The position numbers were made by a program, and so were the translations under genes. A DNA stretch of 64,000 nt from Leptolyngbya sp. NIES-3755 (GTDB taxonomy: Bacteria; Cyanobacteriota; Cyanobacteriia; Leptolyngbyales; Leptolyngbyaceae), in contig AP017308.1 of assembly GCA_001548435.1 (NCBI GenBank), forward strand, positions 2,303,030 through 2,367,029, read 5' to 3'. The notes beneath the pieces are model-generated. The model worked only from the letters and a program-made list of their open reading frames with translations. It was not told where the DNA came from and did no database searches. Numbering within the stretch: the stretch's first letter is position 1; the number at the start of each line of letters is the position of its first letter. Positions 38,116 through 39,844 of the stretch are shown in pieces.

Positions 38116-38374
38116 GAAGTGCGATCGATTCTGGTTGGAAGAACTGCATCAAGTTTCTGCGATCGTTCTATAATGAGGCAAGTTTTTGGCAAACCGAAGC
38201 GGGGGCAAAATCCCTGGGAGGTTCGCCAAATCGCTGGAACCAAGACAATTCAATAGTTTTGAGGATCGGTAAGAAAGCGTCGATCGTAGAATAAAGGCTG
38301 AGATCATGGTTTCAGATGACCTTTGCCAAAAACGGCTGTAGAATCCTTGTTCAGTAAGGGTTCTGGGGCGCGGA
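38116..38374 (+). promoter_or_regulatory. CRISPR leader region
   Basis: The 259 bp between the EnvC-like gene and the first repeat contain TATAAT at 38169-38174, a possible -10 for array transcription. An 11-bp inverted repeat with one mismatch (38185-38195 with 38220-38230) encloses a G-rich stem (GGGGGCAAAATCCC). The block resembles cyanobacterial CRISPR leaders with a conserved GGCAAACC...GGTTCGCC hairpin (from memory). Leader-proximal repeats are identical while the far end is decayed, which agrees with a leader on the left. Confidence 0.6.
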
Positions 38375-39414
38375 CTTTCGCACCTACTAATCCCGGCAAC
38401 GGGACTGAAACTTTCGATCGGGTCGTAGTGCGAACACTTGCCCTCGATCGCTTTCGCACCTACTAATCCCGGCAACGGGACTGAAACCTTTGTTCCTTGG
38501 ACTTGCCCGATGACTGCAAAAATCTTTCGCACCTACTAATCCCGGCAACGGGACTGAAACAATTCCTTGAGATGCTGGATGATTGGAGGCATGATCTTTC
38601 GCACCTACTAATCCCGGCAACGGGACTGAAACCCTCAACGAGTTCAGACAGATAGGATAACGCCATCTTTCGCACCTACTAATCCCGGCAACGGGACTGA
38701 AACCCGAAAAAGTCCGAAGTGAACTGATTATTGCTCCAGCTTTCGCACCTACTAATCCCGGCAACGGGACTGAAACGATCCGCACTGGCGCGAAGCTTGC
38801 AATAACTCGCCTTTCGCACCTACTAATCCCGGCAACGGGACTGAAACCGATCGCTCGGATGCTGATGAAGTGACCGTTCTGATCTTTCGCACCTACTAAT
38901 CCCGGCAACGGGACTGAAACGAATACTTGCCCACTCGTAGGAAACTTTCTCTAGCTTTCGCACCTACTAATCCCGGCAACGGGACTGAAACTTCATTGTG
39001 TTAGTCAGTTTCGACACCGATACATCAGGTCTTTCGCACCTACTAATCCCGGCAACGGGACTGAAACTGGCAATGTTTGAGGTGGAACTGATTCCCGTAG
39101 ATGCTTTCGCACCTACTAATCCCGGCAACGGGACTGAAACAGCGCTCCGATGTCAGCTGGCAGAATTCCAAAGAATGCCTTTCGCACCTACTAATCCCGG
39201 CAACGGGACTGAAACTAATAACGAACTCTGGACAAGTGAAGAAGCGAGTCTTTCGCACCTACTAATCCCGGCAACGGGACTGAAACGCGAAATCATTTCC
39301 CCTAGTTACTGTAAGCTTCGTGCTTTCGCACCTACTAATCCCGGCAACGGGACTGAAACATATTCTTGCCGTCGCTGCCCGACTTTGCGATCGACACTTT
39401 CGCACCTACTAATC
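38375..39414 (+). CRISPR. CRISPR array, subtype I-D-like repeat, 14 full repeats and one truncated
   Basis: Fourteen identical 37-bp repeats (starting CTTTCGCACCTACTAA and ending GGGACTGAAAC) begin at 38375, 38451, 38524, 38596, 38667, 38740, 38811, 38884, 38955, 39031, 39104, 39179, 39250 and 39323. A truncated repeat of 18 matching bases starts at 39397. The 14 spacers are 39, 36, 35, 34, 36, 34, 36, 34, 39, 36, 38, 34, 36 and 37 bp long and all differ. The repeat carries a CCCG-GCAA-CGGG hairpin and would leave the 8-base ACTGAAAC handle. It closely resembles the Synechocystis CRISPR1 (subtype I-D) repeat. No cas gene lies anywhere in the window. Confidence 0.97.
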
Positions 39415-39460: not shown

Positions 39461-39844
39461 ATGTCAGAAGAATCACAAAGCAATTTAGAAGATCGAATCA
39501 TTGATCTAGAGTCGAGTATGGGCGATGTTAAATCTGCAATCAATCAGTTAATTGACTACTCTGTGCAGAATAATGAACGCCTAACTAATTCAGTCGATCA
39601 ACTCGCTCAAGTCGTGCAGACCCTCGCGGAAGGAACAAGTCAGCAAGTCGATCGTGTCACTCAGCGACTCAATCAACTCACCGAAACAACGCAGACTTTA
39701 GCGGAGTCCGTTGCATCTGACCGTGAGAACACTCAGCGGAGACTGAATCAGCTAGAGGAATCAAACCGCTCGATCCAAGCTGCCGTCGATCGCTTCGATC
39801 AACTTCTAGATTACCTCATTCGTCGGGATGGTGATCGTACTTGA
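39461..39844 (+). CDS. Coiled-coil protein of unknown function
   Basis: 127 acidic residues starting at ATG 39461 (MSEESQSNLEDR). Almost the whole protein has heptad periodicity with Leu/Val/Ile at core positions, for example VDRVTQRLNQLTETTQTLAES and TQRRLNQLEESNR. It has no Cys, no signal peptide and no membrane segment, so it is presumably a cytoplasmic fibrous dimer or trimer. Two related segments (about 42-70 and 65-110) suggest internal duplication. It begins 46 bp after the decayed last CRISPR repeat, but that neighbour is probably coincidental. Confidence 0.75.
   Translation: MSEESQSNLEDRIIDLESSMGDVKSAINQLIDYSVQNNERLTNSVDQLAQVVQTLAEGTSQQVDRVTQRLNQLTETTQTLAESVASDRENTQRRLNQLEESNRSIQAAVDRFDQLLDYLIRRDGDRT

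Follow-up and report, generated by a model that had tools for sequence, protein, structure and literature searches.

Subtype I-D CRISPR–Cas systems are well described in cyanobacteria, where the Synechocystis 6803 type combines a characteristic gene set with a repeat of about 37 nt that carries a ACTGAAAC handle, and with an array that adjoins cas2 (PMC10212523). The leaders of cyanobacterial I-D arrays are 202–220 bp in length and contain three motifs (PMC10212523). Arrays may also lie far from any cas gene. According to work cited in PMC10715143, remote or orphan cas-less arrays of Anabaena 7120 are served in trans, and such arrays are tied to a distant system through their repeat and its Cas6.

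Here, we describe a cas-less array of Leptolyngbya sp. NIES-3755, located in a window (the whole stretch of DNA analysed, 64 000 nt; C1:2303030–2367029) of a 6.76 Mb genome assembled in four contigs and 99.99% complete. Repeat, leader and gene content make it very likely that this array is a remote array of the single subtype I-D system of the genome and is served by it in trans. The system resembles the Synechocystis 6803 type in its gene set, its repeat length and handle, its leader of about 202 bp and the junction of cas2 with an array at the main locus. It differs in that three arrays, whose repeats vary slightly, are scattered over the genome, a four-helix gene separates cas1 from cas2, and cas2 is frameshifted. 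The link to a distant system through repeat and Cas6 is as in Anabaena 7120; as a difference, the present array displays its origin as a fossil of the cas2 3′ end ahead of the leader. This fossil is a sequence trace that shows how an array linked to cas genes can give rise to one without them. With one cas1, one cas2 and one cas6 for three arrays, the genome also offers a clean natural case for service in trans and for memory without acquisition.

Structure of the array

The array occupies the following window positions.

38375 to 39396, plus strand: CRISPR array of 14 complete 37-nt repeats and 14 spacers (repeat and spacer listing)
39397 to 39414, plus strand: truncated terminal repeat of 18 nt at the leader-distal end (repeat listing)

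Fourteen perfect copies of the repeat CTTTCGCACCTACTAATCCCGGCAACGGGACTGAAAC span positions 38375–39359, starting at 38375, 38451 and onwards to 39323 with a period of 71–76 nt. The 14 spacers are 34–39 nt long (mean 36.0) and no two are alike; repeat 15 stops after 18 nt. The locus thus consists of identical direct repeats and unique spacers of similar length, as a CRISPR array does, and fourteen exact 37-nt copies at this spacing cannot have arisen by chance. A first-pass annotation of the window had listed 14 identical repeats and 14 differing spacers and had taken the repeat truncated after 18 bases as the leader-distal end; we recovered the same counts and coordinates, with the leader on the opposite side. 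Downstream of the array, a 127-aa coiled-coil ORF (39461–39844) has no homologue in ten relatives.

A single I-D locus 1.12 Mb from the array

In the window, tblastn with a set of Cas proteins of the I-D, variant I-D and III-B types gave no match at E ≤ 0.1, PADLOC returned only weak and non-specific matches (coiled-coil, HTH, redox) for the ten ORFs flanking the array, and every genome-wide match to cas1, cas2, csc2, cas6 and RAMP proteins fell outside the window. These searches agree with the earlier statement that the window is devoid of cas genes. The genome holds one cas1, one csc2, one cas2 and one cas6, all at C1:3474–3479 kb, 1.12 Mb from the window array. The NCBIfam names at this locus are Cas3′ I-D, Cas10d, Csc2, Csc1, Cas6, Cas4, Cas1d and Cas2. 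The operon (L041) runs in the order Cas3′, a nucleotidyltransferase-like/HEPN-like pair, Cas10d, Csc2, Csc1, Cas6, Cas4, Cas1d, a four-helix protein and Cas2; after cas2 come a leader and a three-repeat array. The interference genes form a complete set with open reading frames. An apparent lack of cas2 at the locus was dismissed when a profile search found the gene out of frame.

The nucleotidyltransferase-like and HEPN-like pair between cas3 and cas10d (L041:9842–10992) was assigned by inspection. The effector module looks swapped: the effector genes of G006 (L079) and G007 (L083/L084) are 26–44% identical to those of this genome or undetected by tblastn, and their adaptation genes are 79–90% identical.

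Repeats and leaders shared by three arrays

The genome-wide search for I-D cas genes and like arrays that the first-pass annotation had proposed yielded this one I-D locus and two further related arrays, namely that of the I-D locus itself and a third of 15 repeats at C1:2221361–2222417, 119 kb upstream of the window array. The window repeat is identical to the I-D-locus repeat at 34 of 37 nt. Variation among the three arrays is confined to positions 8–12, except that one repeat in the 2.22 Mb array has A as its first base, and within any one array the variant is uniform. The last 25 nt are common to all three and comprise a predicted TCCCG-GCAA-CGGGA hairpin and the ACTGAAAC handle.

The DNA ahead of the first repeat is likewise related.

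38173 to 38374, plus strand: I-D leader of about 202 bp, recognized by alignment with its counterparts before the other two arrays and by a conserved block of about 47 nt

The window leader aligns end to end with the other two leaders, with 82–92% identity by part and 86–92% over 231 alignment columns. Its conserved 47-nt block ends about 145 bp ahead of the first repeat and belongs to an imperfect inverted repeat (TTGGCAAACC/GGTTCGCCAA). Among 29 loci, nearly all of them from relatives, the block lies upstream of the array in 24, ending 84–161 bp before it (mostly 142–157 bp). A best match of at least 33/47 occurs in 38 of the 58 loci with cas2-adjacent DNA, usually 10–27 bp past the end of cas2. 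The array therefore shares its repeat with an array adjacent to cas10d, csc2 and csc1, has a leader of I-D type and is accompanied by complete interference genes, and the earlier description of the repeat as subtype I-D-like holds, since its 3′ half and the leader match the sole complete I-D interference locus of the genome.

Probable service in trans

The window array is an ordinary cyanobacterial I-D memory, a canonical array distant from its cas genes, and we infer from these relations that it is transcribed, processed and used in trans. Its leader would drive a precursor RNA, which the sole Cas6, whose gene lies 1.12 Mb away in the I-D operon, would cut at the shared hairpin to leave the ACTGAAAC handle. 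The crRNAs would then load a Cas10d/Csc2/Csc1/Cas6 complex, with Cas3′ and Cas10d expected to act on the target DNA. The first-pass annotation had offered two choices, Cas proteins acting in trans or a stranded array; the single complete I-D locus, which has the 3′ half of the repeat and the leader in common with the window array, upholds the former and not the latter.

Near 3.15 Mb (L215/L216; C1:3148–3156 kb) lies a type III-B cmr locus, which could be a second user. That the array mainly feeds this Cmr effector is very improbable: the locus lacks a cas1 or cas6 of its own nearby, which would fit borrowing, but it owns arrays whose unrelated repeat ends in TTGGAAAC, whereas the window array agrees with the I-D locus in both repeat and leader. 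Window-array crRNAs may nevertheless be shared with the III-B effector.

Spacer targets

Protospacers were sought in phages and plasmids by distant blastn, in viral contigs by means of eight spacer patterns and in genomes of the genus; none of these searches, which include the comparison with phage and plasmid collections proposed earlier, gave a convincing target. Against the genome itself outside the arrays, no spacer match reached E 0.01 and no self-targeting was seen. The one weak match, to spacer 14 at 29/33 positions, falls within a prophage-like stretch of G008, inside a 756-aa ORF adjoining a BstA-family gene (L217:6991–10431). It was also the only match available for a look-up of the GTN PAM; GTC stands one base off the protospacer, so the match serves as a lead only.

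Origin of the window array

The similarity to the I-D locus continues beyond the leader.

38122 to 38172, plus strand: fossil of the cas2 3′ end, the last 16 or so codons to the former stop TAA, from in-register alignment with cas2 tails

Altogether, the 253 bp preceding the array align to the 3′ end of I-D cas2 and its leader. The cas2 tails of G006, G007 and the genome's own I-D locus align with the fossil in register; it reads EELHQVSAIVL before the stop against SEKPRQVSAIVL before the stop. Its local score against the cas2 tail is 52; the best of 20 000 random 60-mers from the same genome scores 34. Most of the cas2 tail is missing before the 2.22 Mb array and its syntenic partner in G006, so the tail is no required part of the leader, and a fossil of the copying event is the best reading of it. 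The 253 bp, which include this fossil, indicate that the window array descends from a copied cas2–leader–array junction.

The site of insertion would be the interval flanked by an M23 peptidase gene and mnmG, in which the window array lies. G006 is the nearest relative with this site, and its neighbouring genes there are mostly about 95% identical at the protein level; its interval holds a CHRD-like gene (by inspection) and no array, which led us to reject an orthologous array site there. We also rejected the solo array of G006 as an orthologue of the window array, since that solo array is syntenic with the 2.22 Mb array. Leaders diverge by 8–14% within the genome and by 13% from that of the G006 solo array; because divergence within the genome is about that between species, either the copy is old or the leader has been exchanged since. 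The array was probably copied from the I-D locus long ago.

State of cas2 and of adaptation

New spacers would require the distant Cas1, Cas2 and Cas4. In this assembly, the sole cas2 (L041:18931–19223, or C1:3478930–3479222) has one base missing near codon 7–8. Its conserved body has no upstream in-frame ATG, GTG or TTG; compared with G007 and G005, the ATG that does lie upstream (L041:18931) is out of phase by one base. The start is intact in three relatives (G005, G006 and G007), G006 having its own ATG near the body. With cas2 frameshifted, a frozen memory is a more likely state of the window array than continued growth; spacer acquisition may now be off, and its loss is probable. The first-pass annotation had read identical repeats as a sign of recent activity, which does not follow, as every array is uniform in the repeat variant that it carries, and the frameshift of the only cas2 in the assembly also speaks against it.

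The break could be a sequencing or assembly error. That adaptation still works, the frameshift being such an error or bypassed and the array still acquiring spacers in trans, is a genuine but somewhat doubtful possibility. The rest of cas2 has a dN/dS of 0.11 (0.04–0.07 among relatives) and is still constrained, which makes the break either a recent one or an error, and a full canonical leader is present. Against this stand the lack of an in-frame start, the intact starts of the three relatives and 3780 aa of other genes compared without a frame break, which indicates that errors are not common in this assembly.

A stranded relic, no longer transcribed or used and decaying, is unlikely. The truncated last repeat, the frameshifted cas2 and the lack of spacer targets would suit it; all 14 repeats are perfect, however, the leader with its conserved block is intact and the interference genes are open. 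A broader reading, plausible though slightly less likely than not, is that new I-D arrays are born when the cas2-tail/leader/array junction is copied to distant sites; the three-array set of this strain would now be frozen, its single cas2 broken and its interference kept.

The four-helix gene between cas1 and cas2 (TIGR02436; L041:18400–18930 and L079:4234–4700) was not found at this position in about 70 other cas1–cas2 loci. In the only two species that have it there, this genome (G000) and G006, GGTGTGGGG/CACCCCACAC inverted simple repeats lie on both sides of it.
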